Shown in pieces: positions 20,446 through 28,987 of a DNA stretch of 38,919 bases (position 1 is its first letter; each line of letters opens with the position of its first letter). The position numbers and the translations under genes were made by a program. Source of the DNA: a virus; the IMG/VR virus record IMGVR_UViG_3300045733_000189, positions 1-38,919 of that record; one strand, 5' to 3'. The notes under the pieces were generated by a model. It was not told the origin of the DNA, made no database searches, and saw only the letters and a list, made by a program, of their open reading frames with translations.

Positions 20446-20477
20446 GGCCCGGCCGTGGAGCCACCACGAACCGGGCC
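20446..20477 (+). promoter_or_regulatory. Hairpin in the leader of the RecE-like gene
   Basis: A perfect outer stem GGCCCGG (20446-20452) / CCGGGCC (20471-20477) encloses an inner stem CGTGG (20454-20458) / CCACG (20464-20468) with a 5-base loop. It starts 7 bases after the micro-ORF stop and ends 28 bases before the RecE-like start codon. It lacks a T-run, so an attenuator, RNA-processing site or rho-related element are all possible. Confidence 0.5.
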
Positions 20478-20505
20478 AGATCGAAGACCAACACGGAGAA
20501 AGTAC

Positions 20506-21480
20506 ATGTCGGACGAAGAGAGATCAACCGCGGCGCCGCCTCCCGGGATCTACCCGGGGGTGCCCGTTGAGGACTACCTCGCCTGGCCCTACGCCAGCAA
20601 CAGCAGCATGGGCCGCCTCGTTCCGCCCTCGACGCCGGCGCACCTGAGGGCCTACCTCGACGAGCCGCCCCGGGACAAGCAGTCCTGGAAGGAGGGACGC
20701 GCCCTGCACGCCTGCATCCTCGAGCCCAAGCGGTACGCTGCCGAGTACAGGGTCGCGGGCCAGTGCATCGCCACGACCAAGAAGGGCGAGCGCTGCTCCA
20801 AGAGTGGGACGGTCGCCGTCCACGGTGGCGGCGAGGTCTGCTCGACGCACGCCGGCGACTACGTGCCGGACGACGAGGTGCTCCTGGTCTCCCCGAAGGA
20901 CGCCACGATGGCCCGCCGGGTCCGGGAGTCCTTCGCCGCGCATCCACTGGCCGGCGCGTTCCTCACCGTGCCGGACATGATGACGGAGCTGTCCATCGTC
21001 TGGGACTGCCCGTTCACCGGCGTGCGGTGCAAGGCCCGGCTCGACTATTACAGCCGGAGCCTCATGGGCGGGACGATCCTCGACCTCAAGGGCACCCGCG
21101 ACGCGAGCCCCCGGGCGTTTGCCAAGGACGCATTCTACTTCGGGTATCCCCGCCAGTCGGTCTTCTACCGGCTTGGCGCCTTGGCCGTGGGCCTCCCCGC
21201 ACACGTCTTCGCCGTCGGCGCCATCGAGAAGGAGGCGCCGTTCGCCTTGACCATCTACGCGGTCGGTGACGAGGCGTGCGGCCCGCTACCTGCTCCGGGC
21301 GAGGACCCCATGCACGTGACGGCGCAGATCATCGCACTGCTCAAGCTATGGGACCACTGCCACACCACCGGCGAGTGGCCCGCCTACCCGACCCACGTCC
21401 ACACGCTCCAGCTCGAGGAGTGGGCTTGGAGCGCCCTCGATCACCAGACGCACGCCCTCACGGAGGCTATCGCAGCATGA
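20506..21480 (+). CDS. RecE-like PD-(D/E)XK exonuclease with zinc-knuckle insert
   Basis: A 324-residue 5'-3' exonuclease-type protein of the RecE/DUF3799 family that would resect DNA ends for the RecT protein next door. Residues 13-70 (GIYPGVPVEDYLAWPYASNS, GRALHACILEP) are the family opening. Active-site residues are H68, E161, D180 (KARLDYY), D193 and K195 (ILDLKGT), with Q217 and Y221 (YPRQSVFYR) after. An insert at about 86-117 (C87, C97, C112, H115) looks like a small zinc knuckle of the TKxGxRC...C..H kind, unusual for this family. The ATG at 20506 follows GGAGAAAG; upstream codons run through the hairpin. Catalysis is likely. Confidence 0.88.
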   Translation: MSDEERSTAAPPPGIYPGVPVEDYLAWPYASNSSMGRLVPPSTPAHLRAYLDEPPRDKQSWKEGRALHACILEPKRYAAEYRVAGQCIATTKKGERCSKSGTVAVHGGGEVCSTHAGDYVPDDEVLLVSPKDATMARRVRESFAAHPLAGAFLTVPDMMTELSIVWDCPFTGVRCKARLDYYSRSLMGGTILDLKGTRDASPRAFAKDAFYFGYPRQSVFYRLGALAVGLPAHVFAVGAIEKEAPFALTIYAVGDEACGPLPAPGEDPMHVTAQIIALLKLWDHCHTTGEWPAYPTHVHTLQLEEWAWSALDHQTHALTEAIAA

Positions 21481-22218: not shown

Positions 22219-22512
22219 ATGACCACCCGAACCCGCCGCGCCCTCGTGAGGGTGCAGCACGCCGCCCGCCGACTGGCGCGGGCCGTGCAGGCGCTTGAGC
22301 CGCAGGACAAGAAGGCCCTGCCGTGGAACGTGATCGGCTGGGCATGGAGCGCGCGCGCCGGTGCGCTGGTGGTGGATCGCGGACTGACGAAGATCCTCGG
22401 CCCCGACGCCCCTACCGAGCGCGAGAAGTTCGCCGCCAGCCGTGACCCCGAGGACGTGCTCATGGAAGCGCGCGACGTGGCATCCAACGAAACCCAAGAG
22501 GACCTGACATGA
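22219..22512 (+). CDS. Hypothetical 97-aa basic protein
   Basis: Not recognised. The ATG at 22219 is 4 bases after the RecT stop. The first 25 residues are highly basic (TTRTRRALVRVQHAARRLARA), followed by a helical middle and an acidic end. The arrangement between RecT and the ATPase suggests a DNA-recombination helper, but no family match is visible. It overlaps the ATPase gene by 4 bases. Confidence 0.68.
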   Translation: MTTRTRRALVRVQHAARRLARAVQALEPQDKKALPWNVIGWAWSARAGALVVDRGLTKILGPDAPTEREKFAASRDPEDVLMEARDVASNETQEDLT

Positions 22513-23864
22513 CTGCCAAGACCAACGGCGCGACGATCATCCGCCTCGAAGTGTCCGACTTCCAGGGCCTGCGGGCCGCGAAGCTGGAGCACCTCCCCGA
22601 GCGCGGCCTCGTGCGCATCACGGGCCCCAACGGCGCGGGCAAGACCACCATCCTCAAGGCCATCCAGGGCGCCCTCGGTGGCGCCGGCCTGGTCCACGAG
22701 CGGGCGATCCGCGACGGGGCAGAGGACGGGGCCACCATCGACCTGGAGTTGTCTAACGGGCTCCAGATTCGGCGTCGGCACACGACGGCCAACCCGAAGG
22801 GGCACCTCACCGTCTCCACGCCGGAAGGGGCCGCCTACTCCGCGAGCCAGTCCCGGTTGGACGACCTCCTGGGGCCCCTCTCGTTCGACCCGCAAGCCTT
22901 CTTCGGTCTAGGCGCCAAGCGCCAGCGGGAGATCCTCCTCTCCATCGGGAAGGACCCCGACCTGGTCGCCAAGTTGGACAAGCTGGCCGCCGACCGCGCC
23001 AGGCTCTACGCCACCCGCACCCCGTGGATCTCGAAGCAGCAGGATGCGCGGAAGGGCGTGAAGGCGAAGCCCGTCGGCGACCGGCCCGAGCCCGTGGACA
23101 CCTCCGCCGAGAGCGCGAAGCTCCGGGAGCTCCAGGCAGCGGACCGCGCCGTGCGGGACGCTCGGCGGATCGTGGTGGGCGAGCAGGCGAAAGGCGAGCG
23201 GGCCACCCGGGACAGCACCGCCCAGGAAGCCCGGGTCATCGCCCTGCGCGCCGAACTGAACGGCGCGGAGGCGGACCTGGGGGACATGCACAAGGATCTG
23301 CGCCGGCGCGAGGTGGCGCTGAAGGCCGCCCAGGCCGCCGTGGACGCCATGCCTGACCCGGCCGACGCCATCCAGGCGTGCATGGACCGGATCTCCCAGG
23401 CCGAGGGCGTCCAGCGCGCCCTGAAGCCCTGGGAGGCATGGGAGGCCGCGCAGGTCACGCTCAAGGACGCGACCGAGCGTGTGGCCGCGCTCACCGACGA
23501 GATGGGCGCCATGGAGGCCGAGGAACACGGCCTGATCGCGGCGGCCGGAATCCCGGTGCGTGGCGTCACCTTCGACGCCGACGGCTCGCCGCTGCTCAAC
23601 GGGCGGCCGATGGAACTGGCGTCCGGTGGGGAGCGGATCGAACTCGCCGTGGACGTGGCGCTCGCCGTGGACCCGGAGCTTCGGATCTGCCTGGTGGACG
23701 AGGCCAATGACCTCGACCTGGAGGCGCTCGACCGGCTGCACCAGCGGGCAGAGGAGCACGGCTTCCAGGTGTGGGTCTGCCGGATCGGCCTGGAGGGGCC
23801 CGGCGAGGTGTCGGTCCTGGCCGGCGAAGCACACTCCCGCGAGGCCGAGCCGGAGTTGTTCTGA
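22509..23864 (+). CDS. SbcC/RecF-like ABC-type ATPase
   Basis: A 451-residue SMC-type ATPase. Walker A is GPNGAGKT at 39-46, preceded by a strand RLEVSDFQGLRAA as in RecF/SbcC. A charged helical coiled coil spans about 155-345. The signature motif is SGGE near 372, and Walker B with catalytic glutamate is LRICLVDEAN at about 389-398. It is shorter than bacterial SbcC, with a coiled coil of about 190 residues. No SbcD-type nuclease sits beside it, although a metallophosphoesterase is at 17325-18392. It is probably a DNA-end processing or recombination factor. Confidence 0.85.
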   Translation: MTAKTNGATIIRLEVSDFQGLRAAKLEHLPERGLVRITGPNGAGKTTILKAIQGALGGAGLVHERAIRDGAEDGATIDLELSNGLQIRRRHTTANPKGHLTVSTPEGAAYSASQSRLDDLLGPLSFDPQAFFGLGAKRQREILLSIGKDPDLVAKLDKLAADRARLYATRTPWISKQQDARKGVKAKPVGDRPEPVDTSAESAKLRELQAADRAVRDARRIVVGEQAKGERATRDSTAQEARVIALRAELNGAEADLGDMHKDLRRREVALKAAQAAVDAMPDPADAIQACMDRISQAEGVQRALKPWEAWEAAQVTLKDATERVAALTDEMGAMEAEEHGLIAAAGIPVRGVTFDADGSPLLNGRPMELASGGERIELAVDVALAVDPELRICLVDEANDLDLEALDRLHQRAEEHGFQVWVCRIGLEGPGEVSVLAGEAHSREAEPELF

Positions 23865-25907: not shown

Positions 25908-26350
25908 CCCCCGTCACCTGGCAACCCGAGGTGTGCCCGACGTGCGGCAACATCCTCCCCGGCCTGGGCACCTTCTGCCACATGTGCCACGCCTACACGG
26001 AAGACATGGGCGCGACCACGGACGTGAGCCCGGCGGCACGGGAGCGGATCCCCGACGACCGCACGGAGGCGCAGGTCCAGCTCGCCATCCGGCGCGCGGC
26101 GGAACTCCTGGGATATGAGGCGTTCGACCTGAGCCAAGGACGGCCCACCCGCCAGCCCGCAGGTATCCCGGATCTCTACGTGAGAGGCCACGGGCGCCGC
26201 GTGTGGATTGAGGTGAAGCGCCCCCACGGTGGCAAGCTGTCAGAGGCGCAGCACCAATTCATCACGGGCGAGCTGGGCAACGGTGGCGACGCCTTCGTGG
26301 CCCGCTCCGAGGACGACTTTCTGTTGTGGCACACCCGGGAGGGAGCATGA
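25904..26350 (+). CDS. VRR-NUC nuclease with N-terminal zinc ribbon
   Basis: A 148-residue protein with two parts. Residues 11-28 are a zinc ribbon (C11, C14, C25, C28). Residues 55-130 are a VRR-NUC (PD-(D/E)XK) nuclease: E55, D90 (GIPDLYV), E103 and K105 (WIEVKRP), Q116 (LSEAQHQF). VRR-NUC proteins usually cut branched or hairpin DNA as Holliday-junction-type nucleases. It lies between small unknown genes and an HTH gene. It could help resolve recombination intermediates made by RecE/RecT; this is inference. Confidence 0.86.
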   Translation: MTPVTWQPEVCPTCGNILPGLGTFCHMCHAYTEDMGATTDVSPAARERIPDDRTEAQVQLAIRRAAELLGYEAFDLSQGRPTRQPAGIPDLYVRGHGRRVWIEVKRPHGGKLSEAQHQFITGELGNGGDAFVARSEDDFLLWHTREGA

Positions 26351-26742
26351 ACCTCGACACTCGCACGTCCGCCATCGAACGCGCTGCCCAAGCATGGGCC
26401 ACCTACTACCTATGGGCGCAGGACCAGCCGTGCGTCCAGGGCACGAAGAACCGCACCTATACCGGCCCCGTCGCCGACAGCATCCTCGCCCGCGTGGGCA
26501 TCAGCTTCACCGCGGATCCCTACGCCTACCGCGCGGCCACCGACGAAGTGATCCGCCGTGGCTACGAATTGGCCGGCGGGAAGCACGACCGCCGGGGCTC
26601 GGTCGTCGGTCGCGACATGGAAGGACTCCGCAAGCGGGCCGATGCCCTTCGCAGGCTCGGCGGGACGTACATCCAAATCGCTGCGGATCTGGGCGTGTCC
26701 ACCACGTCCGTGTACCGGATGCTCAAGAGGTCGGCGGCATGA
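26347..26742 (+). CDS. 131-aa protein with C-terminal helix-turn-helix
   Basis: The C-terminus (YIQIAADLGVSTTSVYRMLKR, about 108-128) is a clear resolvase/sigma-type helix-turn-helix. The first 100 residues are helical and unassigned. A regulator or replication factor is possible. It directly precedes the radical-SAM-like gene with an ATGA overlap, so it may regulate or act with it. Confidence 0.7.
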   Translation: MNLDTRTSAIERAAQAWATYYLWAQDQPCVQGTKNRTYTGPVADSILARVGISFTADPYAYRAATDEVIRRGYELAGGKHDRRGSVVGRDMEGLRKRADALRRLGGTYIQIAADLGVSTTSVYRMLKRSAA

Positions 26743-27572
26743 CGCGCATGTACGCCGACACCCTCACGGCAGAGGTTAACCGGAAGGGAGTGCTGGACAT
26801 CGACACCGTCAAGGGCTGTTCGGCGGGGATGGCCGCGCACCCGAACGGTGGCTGTTATGGCGCCTGCTACGCCTGTAGTATCGCCCGGTTCAGGGGCATC
26901 GACTTCTCGCAGGCCGTGGTAAGGCGGGTTCGTGGAAGCTTGGAGTGGGACCATCTTGAGCGTGCGGTTAGGTCTGCGCCGTTCGGGTTCTTCCGCGTCG
27001 GCACGATGGGCGACCCGTGCCACGCCTGGGCGCATACCGTGAGCATCGTTGAGGCACTGGCACCCTTCGCGGTTCCTGTGATCGTCACGAAGCATTGGCG
27101 CACCCTGGACGATGGGGACGTGTGCAGGCTGGTGGAGTGCGGGGCGGTCCTGAATACGTCCATCTCCGCACTAGACACGGTGGCCGAGTTGGCGCACCGG
27201 AGGCGGCAGATTGCTCGGTATGCGGCGTTCGGTGGCGTGAGCGTCGCGCGCATCGTGTCGTGCGAGTTCAATACCGCCGTCCCCGAGGGTGCCCGGCTTG
27301 CGGCTGTACAGTCCAGGCTATTTGCGGACGGGGAGGATGTCATAGACAACCCCCTGCGCGTGCCCAGCACGCATGAGCTTGTGCGTAGCGGCTTGGTCGT
27401 GGTCCGCCGGGTGCGCGACCTGGCCACGGTGCGCTCCATGTCGCTGGCCCGGCCCGCCACATACGTGGGCCACTGTAACGCTTGTCCAGACAGGTGCGGT
27501 CTCTTGTGGTGCGGCCGAGAACACCCGAAACCCAAAGCACCCCAGACATCACTATTCGAGGAGCCCTGCTAG
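26739..27572 (+). CDS. Radical-SAM-like protein with C-terminal clamp-type peptide
   Basis: A 277-residue protein with the radical-SAM cluster motif C39-x3-C43-x2-C46 (GGCYGACYAC). Barrel-like strands follow: FFRVGTMGDPC (84-94), VPVIVTKHW (112-120), LNTSISALD (138-146) and a late VARIVSCEF. A second cysteine cluster, C246-x2-C249-x3-C253-x4-C258, could bind an auxiliary Fe-S cluster or zinc. The end QTSLFEEP (269-276) matches the QxSLF beta-clamp-binding peptide. The family resembles small radical-SAM proteins of the DUF5131/photolyase-like set; no function is proven. The next gene is a DNA methyltransferase fusion 2 bases away, so DNA modification is the leading inference. Confidence 0.72.
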   Translation: MTRMYADTLTAEVNRKGVLDIDTVKGCSAGMAAHPNGGCYGACYACSIARFRGIDFSQAVVRRVRGSLEWDHLERAVRSAPFGFFRVGTMGDPCHAWAHTVSIVEALAPFAVPVIVTKHWRTLDDGDVCRLVECGAVLNTSISALDTVAELAHRRRQIARYAAFGGVSVARIVSCEFNTAVPEGARLAAVQSRLFADGEDVIDNPLRVPSTHELVRSGLVVVRRVRDLATVRSMSLARPATYVGHCNACPDRCGLLWCGREHPKPKAPQTSLFEEPC

Positions 27573-27574
27573 CA

Positions 27575-28987
27575 ATGCCACGAGTCACCGACGCGCCATC
27601 GTTGTTCGCTCAGTCCACGCCGGAGCCGGAGTGGGCCGTTGTCCCAAGGATCATCGGGTCGGGTTATGAAAAAGACATCGCCCGGCTGGCCATTGAGGAT
27701 GGGATCGCGCAGCGCGCGGCGCGCAAGAACATGCAGGTCCACTCCGCCGTAGTGCTCAAGCTCGACGGCGAGTTCGCGGGGTTCATGACCTTTCAGGACA
27801 ACCACGAGGTGCGCGAGTTCTGCCTACTCCAGTCGGTTATCAAGCCCGCGCTCTACACCCCGGCCCTATACCGTGAACTGGTGAAGAGGGTGATAGCGGA
27901 GAACCACGCCAGCTATCCCGCCATCATCACGACCGACCCCAAGAGCAAGTTCGAGACGCCCGCATTGTTTGAGGCCCTGGGCTTTCAGGCCTACCTCAAG
28001 ATGTCCGGGTTCCACTACATGGTGCGCGGCGACCTGGCCGACGTGCGGATGAAGCTCCTGGCCCACGTCACCATGACGAACGTGTGGGTCACGACGAAGG
28101 GCGACTGGCTCCGGCTCAAGCGTGAGTGGAACGAGCGCATCAACGCGGCCGGCGAACGGGCCGGTGTGCAAGATCCGATCTACGCGACTCGTGGCGGGTG
28201 CTGGCAGGGTGAGAACGGGTACTCGAACGTCGTGAACACGAAGCGCCACGTTGACGAGGATGGCGAGGTCGTGGCCACGACGAAGGCGCACAACGGCAAC
28301 GCCTCGGTTCTGGATCCGGTCGCCTGTGAGGTCGTGGCGCGGTTCTTCATGCCCGCGTCCGGGGGCGCGATCTACAACCCGTTCGGCGGTGGCGTGCAGA
28401 TGGGCTACGTGGCGGGCGCGTCCGGGTACGGGTACCTCGCCAGCGAAATCAGGCAGAATCAGGTTGACGCCAACAACCTCATCTGCGCCGAGTTCGCGCC
28501 CGGCGTCCAATGGGTTCAGGCCGACAGCTCCACGTATGATCCCGGCCGCGACTTCGACATGGTGTTCACCTGCCCGCCCTACTACAGGGTGGAGAAGTAC
28601 CTCGACTACGACGGCTCTCCACCTTCCGGTGAGATCAACAGCATGGCCACCTACGAGGACTTCAGGGCGGCCCTGTTCTCGGGGTACCGGGTGGCGATTT
28701 CGCGCCTGAAGCCCAACAGGTTTTTCGCCATCATGGTCGGGGACAGTCGGGACAAGGACGGCGCGTACTACTGCGCGGAGGCAGAGACCGAGCTGTTCCT
28801 GCGCGACCAGGGCCTCAAGGTCTACAACCGGATCGTGTACCTCGAATCCGAGTTCACCCGCCTGGCCCACGCCAAGACCACGCTGAACACCCGCAAGTTC
28901 CCCAAGCGCGAACAGAAGATCATCGTCGCATACAAGGGGGACACCAAGGCAATCGGGCGTGACTTCGGGCACCTCGGAAGGCTGTAG
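27575..28987 (+). CDS. GNAT-like domain fused to a DNA methyltransferase
   Basis: A 470-residue fusion. Residues about 20-155 look like a GNAT/Mom-type acyltransferase fold: HSAVVLKLDGEFAGFMTFQDN, then CLLQSVIKPALYTPALYRELV, and ALFEALGFQAYLKMSGF near the end. Residues 245-460 are a class I amino-methyltransferase: YNPFGGGVQMGYVA at 267-280 is motif I-like, and FTCPPYY at 331-337 is the catalytic motif IV. The MTase core alone would act on adenine N6 or cytosine N4. The start is the ATG at 27575 behind GAGGAG (27558-27563, spacing long). It follows the radical-SAM gene by 2 bases, suggesting one pathway. N-terminal homology to Mom is structural guesswork. Confidence 0.78.
   Translation: MPRVTDAPSLFAQSTPEPEWAVVPRIIGSGYEKDIARLAIEDGIAQRAARKNMQVHSAVVLKLDGEFAGFMTFQDNHEVREFCLLQSVIKPALYTPALYRELVKRVIAENHASYPAIITTDPKSKFETPALFEALGFQAYLKMSGFHYMVRGDLADVRMKLLAHVTMTNVWVTTKGDWLRLKREWNERINAAGERAGVQDPIYATRGGCWQGENGYSNVVNTKRHVDEDGEVVATTKAHNGNASVLDPVACEVVARFFMPASGGAIYNPFGGGVQMGYVAGASGYGYLASEIRQNQVDANNLICAEFAPGVQWVQADSSTYDPGRDFDMVFTCPPYYRVEKYLDYDGSPPSGEINSMATYEDFRAALFSGYRVAISRLKPNRFFAIMVGDSRDKDGAYYCAEAETELFLRDQGLKVYNRIVYLESEFTRLAHAKTTLNTRKFPKREQKIIVAYKGDTKAIGRDFGHLGRL

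Follow-up and report, generated by a model that had tools for sequence, protein, structure and literature searches.

What is encoded by a phage gene pair in which a radical-SAM-like protein stands next to a DNA methyltransferase that carries an acyltransferase-like domain? The question is raised by IMG/VR virus record IMGVR_UViG_3300045733_000189 (38,919 bases, hereafter the window). Two genes on its + strand, P0002 (26739-27572, 277 aa) and P0001 (27575-28987, 470 aa), are separated by 2 bases, with the positions and strand reported in an earlier note on this DNA. Viruses commonly modify their DNA bases to hide from bacterial defences, and phage hypermodifications shield genomes against nucleases of the host and are a source of new base chemistries. 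Structure prediction and comparison show that a radical-SAM fold, a GNAT fold and an amino-methyltransferase-type domain form one genetic unit, and on balance we favour the view that this three-module unit serves phages as an enzyme for hypermodifying DNA bases.

Folds and motifs of the two proteins

P0002 gave no significant family in sequence searches of Pfam, PHROGs, NCBIfam, PADLOC or the PDB, and a weak PHROG match to an HNH protein (E 0.02) was judged to be chance. Its AlphaFold2 (AF2) model (pLDDT 90.8, pTM 0.87) has the (beta/alpha) partial-barrel fold of radical-SAM enzymes. Spore photoproduct lyase (SPL) is the top Foldseek match in the PDB (E 2e-4, TMq 0.53), followed by the pyruvate-formate-lyase activating enzyme (PFL-AE), AprD4 and NifB, and the top viral structure match in BFVD is a Radical_SAM protein (E 3.5e-4). 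The radical-SAM-like character claimed for the first gene is thus supported by its predicted fold. At the profile level, hhalign relates the P0002 family to RS2, a different radical-SAM family with a canonical CX3CX2C motif (E 9e-6, probability 83%), and pairs the CYxxCYA of the P0002 family with the CxxxCxxCYA of RS2.

Three cysteines of P0002 (C27, C39 and C43) are invariant in all 85 nonredundant homologues, with the spacing C-x(9-12)-C-x3-C (C-x11-C-x3-C in the window), and they mark a probable cluster-ligand region (KGC...GGCYGACYA; 26817-26873, + strand) in which cluster binding is putative. The CxxxCxxC motif that had been read here is mostly accidental, as the position of its third cysteine (C46) is occupied by Cys in only 2 of about 80 family members with a scorable cluster region. 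A second cluster, of four cysteines, had also been proposed and survives in part: a C-terminal CxxCxxxCG (C246, C249 and C253; 27474-27500, + strand), kept in 84/85 homologues, is a candidate auxiliary metal site, but the fourth cysteine, C258, falls outside the columns that are at least 97% conserved. P0002 is therefore best regarded as a putative radical-SAM enzyme whose cluster loop is stretched and non-canonical. Members of the superfamily that lack the canonical motif do exist, for example ThiC and PhnJ. Membership of DUF5131 (PF07505, phage Gp37/Gp68), to which a similarly Cys-rich N-terminus might point as a distant relative, was considered and rejected, since a single one of 25 P0002-family members matched in the profile search (at E 0.15) and there was no such match in the record of the window.

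Residues 19-163 of P0001 (27629-28063, + strand) adopt the GNAT-superfamily fold according to AF2 (pLDDT 86) and Foldseek, in good agreement with the acyltransferase-like domain that had been placed at 20-155 of this 470-residue protein. The domain has 308 PDB matches at E<=0.001, including GCN5 (TM 0.74), and the 50 listed are GNAT-type acyltransferases. There is no model for it in Pfam, PHROGs, NCBIfam or PADLOC. Two stretches, RAARKNMQxHSA and EFCLLQS, are nearly invariant across 94 distinct domains of this kind. The folds of both proteins therefore came out of structure prediction as the earlier note had anticipated.

The C-terminal part of P0001 (28067-28987, + strand) contains the methyltransferase motif I NPFGGG (residues 268-273) followed by motif IV TCPPYY (residues 332-337). 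It matches phrog_12517 (E 4e-41), phrog_498 ("DNA methyltransferase", E 2e-34) and PF01555 (E 9e-4; 19.6 bits, under the 26.7-bit cut-off), the last of which is matched by 23/23 aligned relatives with a best E of 3e-6; these matches and motifs support the methyltransferase core recognised from TCPPYY. Motif IV of this type reads [T/S/A]-Cys-Pro-Pro-Tyr, in contrast to the usual D/N/S-PP-Y, and is preceded by NPFGGG or a DPFAGG-like motif I. In proteins with the GNAT-methyltransferase arrangement it takes the invariant form [T/S]CPPYY, with CPPYY found in 96/99 (the remaining 3 were not scored), and the Cys is invariant in an eight-sequence alignment. The named relatives of the domain are ParB-methyltransferases from phages of Listeria, Enterococcus, Mycobacterium, Pseudomonas, Haloarcula and Microcystis, at 26-31% identity. 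These phage ParB-CPPY DNA methyltransferases (phrog_498; for example Listeria B054 gp77, phiFL3A gp36 and HCTV-2 gp11) have a homologous domain, the same motif order and the Cys-PP-Tyr, and differ in that ParB occupies the N-terminal position held by the GNAT domain in P0001.

Linkage of the radical-SAM and GNAT-methyltransferase modules

In scans of IMG/VR, P0001 had relatives at 40 loci; the P0002 profile matched 143 relatives and the GNAT profile 234, of which the top 80 per profile were retained. Searching all loci with profiles identified 99 distinct GNAT-methyltransferases from uncultured phages, of which 5 lie at contig ends and 94 have a readable neighbourhood. A radical-SAM partner accompanies 93 of these 94. 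Fifty carry the radical-SAM domain as an in-frame fusion (full-length fusions being about 730-750 aa), 33 have it as a separate adjoining gene (17 upstream, 16 downstream), and in 10 the slot of P0002 is taken by a downstream RS2 gene. The earlier note had described two joined genes, and this holds for the window, where they are separate and adjacent; most relatives are instead single open reading frames. Conservation of the pair goes well past what chance would give, and the linkage is far stronger than had been supposed.

RS2 is an SPL-like family that matches PF04055 (E 4e-6; 27.7 bits, just under the Pfam cut-off of 29.5) and NCBIfam rSAM_PA0069 (E 4e-19), so that a protein of the same enzyme class and very different sequence can fill the P0002 position. 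The partnership persists even though gene order varies between groups, and the distance matrices of the radical-SAM and methyltransferase domains are correlated (r 0.58, 0/2000 permutations). Part of the sample is subject to bias, since the P0002 profile served as query in one search and RS2 in another. The P0001 and GNAT searches, however, did not depend on the presence of a radical-SAM gene and, with L177 accounted for, returned a single determinable locus without one (L012/L013). Taken together, the fusion, the two gene orders and the substitution of a different family of the same class suggest a dependence of the GNAT-methyltransferase on a radical-SAM partner. At L038/L127, L040/L144 and L147 the radical-SAM or methyltransferase domain appears to be interrupted by frame breaks or deletions, which represent either assembly errors or decay.

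Possible chemistry and alternative explanations

We infer that DNA is the probable substrate because the methyltransferase is kin to phage ParB-DNA-methyltransferases and because P0002 comes closest, among solved folds, to spore photoproduct lyase, a radical enzyme whose substrates are DNA bases. If the unit is indeed a hypermodification enzyme, the methyltransferase module (CPPYY; N6/N4 amino-methyltransferase-like) would bind phage DNA, flip the target base and either present or alkylate its exocyclic amine, while the GNAT-fold module might hold or transfer a second small group. The radical-SAM module, with its SPL-like fold, could then provide a 5'-deoxyadenosyl radical to activate the donor or the alkyl group already attached, and a group bulkier than methyl would remain on the base. 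In such a scheme the GNAT fold would be catalytic, the order of steps and the product are putative, and evasion of host nucleases would be the presumed purpose.

A more specific proposal concerns Elp3, a radical-SAM/GNAT tRNA U34 carboxymethylase that couples a radical-SAM site to an acetyl-CoA (acetyl-coenzyme A) site on a nucleic-acid base (PMC13315578). The phage unit likewise pairs a radical-SAM site with a GNAT-type site and differs from Elp3, which acts on tRNA and has no methyltransferase domain. We suggest, tentatively and with rather more doubt than belief, that it is the first DNA counterpart of Elp3-type chemistry, namely a three-domain phage enzyme in which a SAM-derived radical and a GNAT-fold site place a carbon-bearing adduct on a base amine presented by the methyltransferase.

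Several findings weigh against hypermodification by such a unit. The canonical Q/R-x-x-G-x-G/A loop that holds the acyl-CoA diphosphate after strand 4 is present in none of the 94 distinct GNAT domains (0/94), in which respect they also depart from Elp3; this absence favours an unusual donor or a non-catalytic GNAT, and the role of the domain may be structural or lie in DNA binding. The cluster motif of the P0002 family is not the CX3CX2C of SPL-type families, its place being taken by the wider spacing together with the C-terminal CxxCxxxCG. One of the 94 GNAT-methyltransferases, that of L012/L013, lacks a radical-SAM partner, and the 40.8-kb L013 record has no P0002-family or PF04055 match. 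Conversely, the radical-SAM protein occurs without a GNAT-methyltransferase in phage records L063, L067, L081 and L099. Most of the ParB relatives of the methyltransferase are without any of the partner enzymes searched for, and in 92 ParB-CPPY methyltransferase loci neither a radical-SAM nor a GNAT match was found.

Among the alternatives, the radical-SAM and GNAT modules might build a modified S-adenosylmethionine (SAM, AdoMet) or another donor off DNA, leaving the CPPY methyltransferase to transfer a larger alkyl group. A precedent exists in phage S-B43, where CmoA makes Cx-SAM for CmoX, which adds a non-methyl group from this modified SAM in the carboxymethylation of cytosine by CmoA/CmoX/CmoY (PMC12783734). 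That system resembles the present one in combining a phage DNA methyltransferase homologue with accessory enzymes for non-methyl base modification, and differs in that CmoX is a C5-methyltransferase with an SPPC motif that uses Cx-SAM, no radical-SAM or GNAT protein being named in its description (PMC12783734). We keep donor synthesis under consideration because a few CPPY methyltransferases carry small-molecule enzymes (AdoMet-decarboxylase-like or pyridoxal-phosphate (PLP) enzymes) beside or inside them. We nevertheless think it unlikely: SpeD or PLP partners occur in just 6/92 CPPY methyltransferase loci, so that a general rule of donor-making partners is not upheld, phage SpeD homologues may be ornithine or arginine decarboxylases instead (PMC10407285), and nothing supports action of the radical-SAM protein on a SAM-like donor. 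Distinctly unlikely, in our judgement, is that the methyltransferase simply makes N6-methyladenine or N4-methylcytosine with the GNAT fold as a non-catalytic module for DNA binding or recognition, the radical-SAM protein being an SPL-like repair or protective enzyme. The missing CoA loop, the ParB domain at the equivalent N-terminal position of relatives, the nearness of P0002 to SPL in fold and the phage without a radical-SAM gene would all fit this explanation. An in-frame fusion of three domains in 50 distinct proteins and a near-obligate partnership with one of two radical-SAM families would, however, be hard to explain if the functions were independent, and the near-invariant GNAT residues suggest an active role.

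Elp3 itself, as a radical-SAM enzyme with an acetyl-CoA site that acts on tRNA, could be taken to indicate that the phage proteins promote infection by modifying tRNA or a protein of the host, the methyltransferase then acting on RNA, and the invariant basic RAARKNMQ stretch of the GNAT domain is compatible with this. We consider it improbable, given that the methyltransferase has its homologues among phage ParB-DNA-methyltransferases and in PF01555 and that the GNAT domain is without its CoA loop. Even though radical-SAM and GNAT domains share one polypeptide in those 50 proteins, Elp3 was not seen in sequence searches of P0002 or among its 50 listed PDB fold matches. Least probable of all, to the point that we give it very little credence, is the fusion of a methyltransferase with a DNA acyltransferase of the Mom family, the radical-SAM protein being incidental. 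Mom has been described as a GNAT-superfamily DNA modifier (PMC7824862), and the adenine modifier of Mu resembles the N-terminal domain of P0001 in having a GNAT fold thought to act on DNA. The GNAT domain nevertheless shows no resemblance to Mu Mom in sequence or by profile (hhalign probability 0.3%), so that "GNAT" stands and the "Mom-type" label of the earlier note falls. Judging from the Mu record, Mom is moreover not known to be fused to a methyltransferase or to have a radical-SAM gene beside it, whereas the partner of P0001 is near-obligate.

The best PDB fold match of P0002 and the SPL-like families that match RS2 (rSAM_PA0069 and rSAM_mob_pairB), which can occupy its slot, both relate the preferred hypermodification enzyme to SPL. 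As a phage base-modification system the unit would be a variant on a known theme; proof of radical chemistry on DNA would make it more than that, and a radical-SAM step acting on DNA would be a new way to enlarge a DNA base. The single-polypeptide forms (about 730-750 aa) make this chemistry directly testable in E. coli.

Distribution and genomic context

No relatives of P0002 were detected among 50,697 phage records (INPHARED, tblastn, E<=0.01), and a single-sequence search of viral contigs with P0002 also returned nothing, the 143 relatives having come from the profile search of the same contigs. One scan of genome contigs from 84,980 species gave four loci. Three are full fused genes, from a Desulfobacterales bin, Smithella sp. 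SCADC and a Desulfobacula bin (L183-L185), and the fourth, in Pseudoduganella (L186), is a short weak match that was unconfirmed by profile search. Because these scans of phage records and genomes are near-empty, we regard the unit as characteristic chiefly of tailed phages that are uncultured. The suggestion that the combination may be undescribed fits the lack of curated-library matches; the open-licence papers searched gave us no account of either a fusion between a radical-SAM domain and a DNA methyltransferase or a unit of radical-SAM, GNAT and methyltransferase, an absence that is provisional.

In the window, the pair is preceded by a helix-turn-helix gene (26326-26742; Pfam HTH_23) whose stop codon overlaps the P0002 ATG as ATGA, and a short open reading frame begins 3 bases past P0001. 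The terminase large subunit is encoded about 3.8 kb beyond the pair, and the window also contains tail, terminase and portal genes. A Thiolase_N match (Pfam, E 0.008) was among the weak matches near the pair and was disregarded. Elsewhere in this phage genome there is a LicD-family domain (306-1238; PF04991, E 2e-14), an SMC/AAA_23-like ATPase (22509-23864; phrog_1499, E 2e-61) and a PD-(D/E)XK DUF3799 protein (20455-21480).

Genes of the RS2 or P0002 families also adjoin ParB-domain genes where there is no GNAT-methyltransferase (L199, L215, L236 and L252, as well as L067 and L081), apparently forming a wider phage radical-SAM/ParB cassette. For example, in L081 (4699-7926) a P0002 homologue lies between two ParB-like genes and adjoins a gene for a PP-loop protein resembling phosphoadenosine phosphosulphate (PAPS) reductase; the same phage additionally encodes a DUF5131 protein (L187).

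The enzymes associated with some ParB-CPPY methyltransferases are of two types. A SpeD/AdoMet-decarboxylase-like gene overlaps the end of the methyltransferase gene in Pseudomonas phage ZRG1 (L266:3447-3836) and Croceibacter phage P2559S (L274:3680-4000), where it is annotated as AdoMet decarboxylase, and a third, SpeD-like gene does so in L355 (4318-4617), hinting at DNA modification of an aminopropyl or polyamine type. In Pseudanabaena phage Pam4 (L271:527-3016) and Erythrobacter phage ZS04 (L273:1093-3531), motifs I and IV of the CPPY methyltransferase are separated by an inserted PLP-enzyme-like domain, and in Mycobacterium phage AlanGrant a PLP enzyme gene overlaps the CPPY methyltransferase gene.

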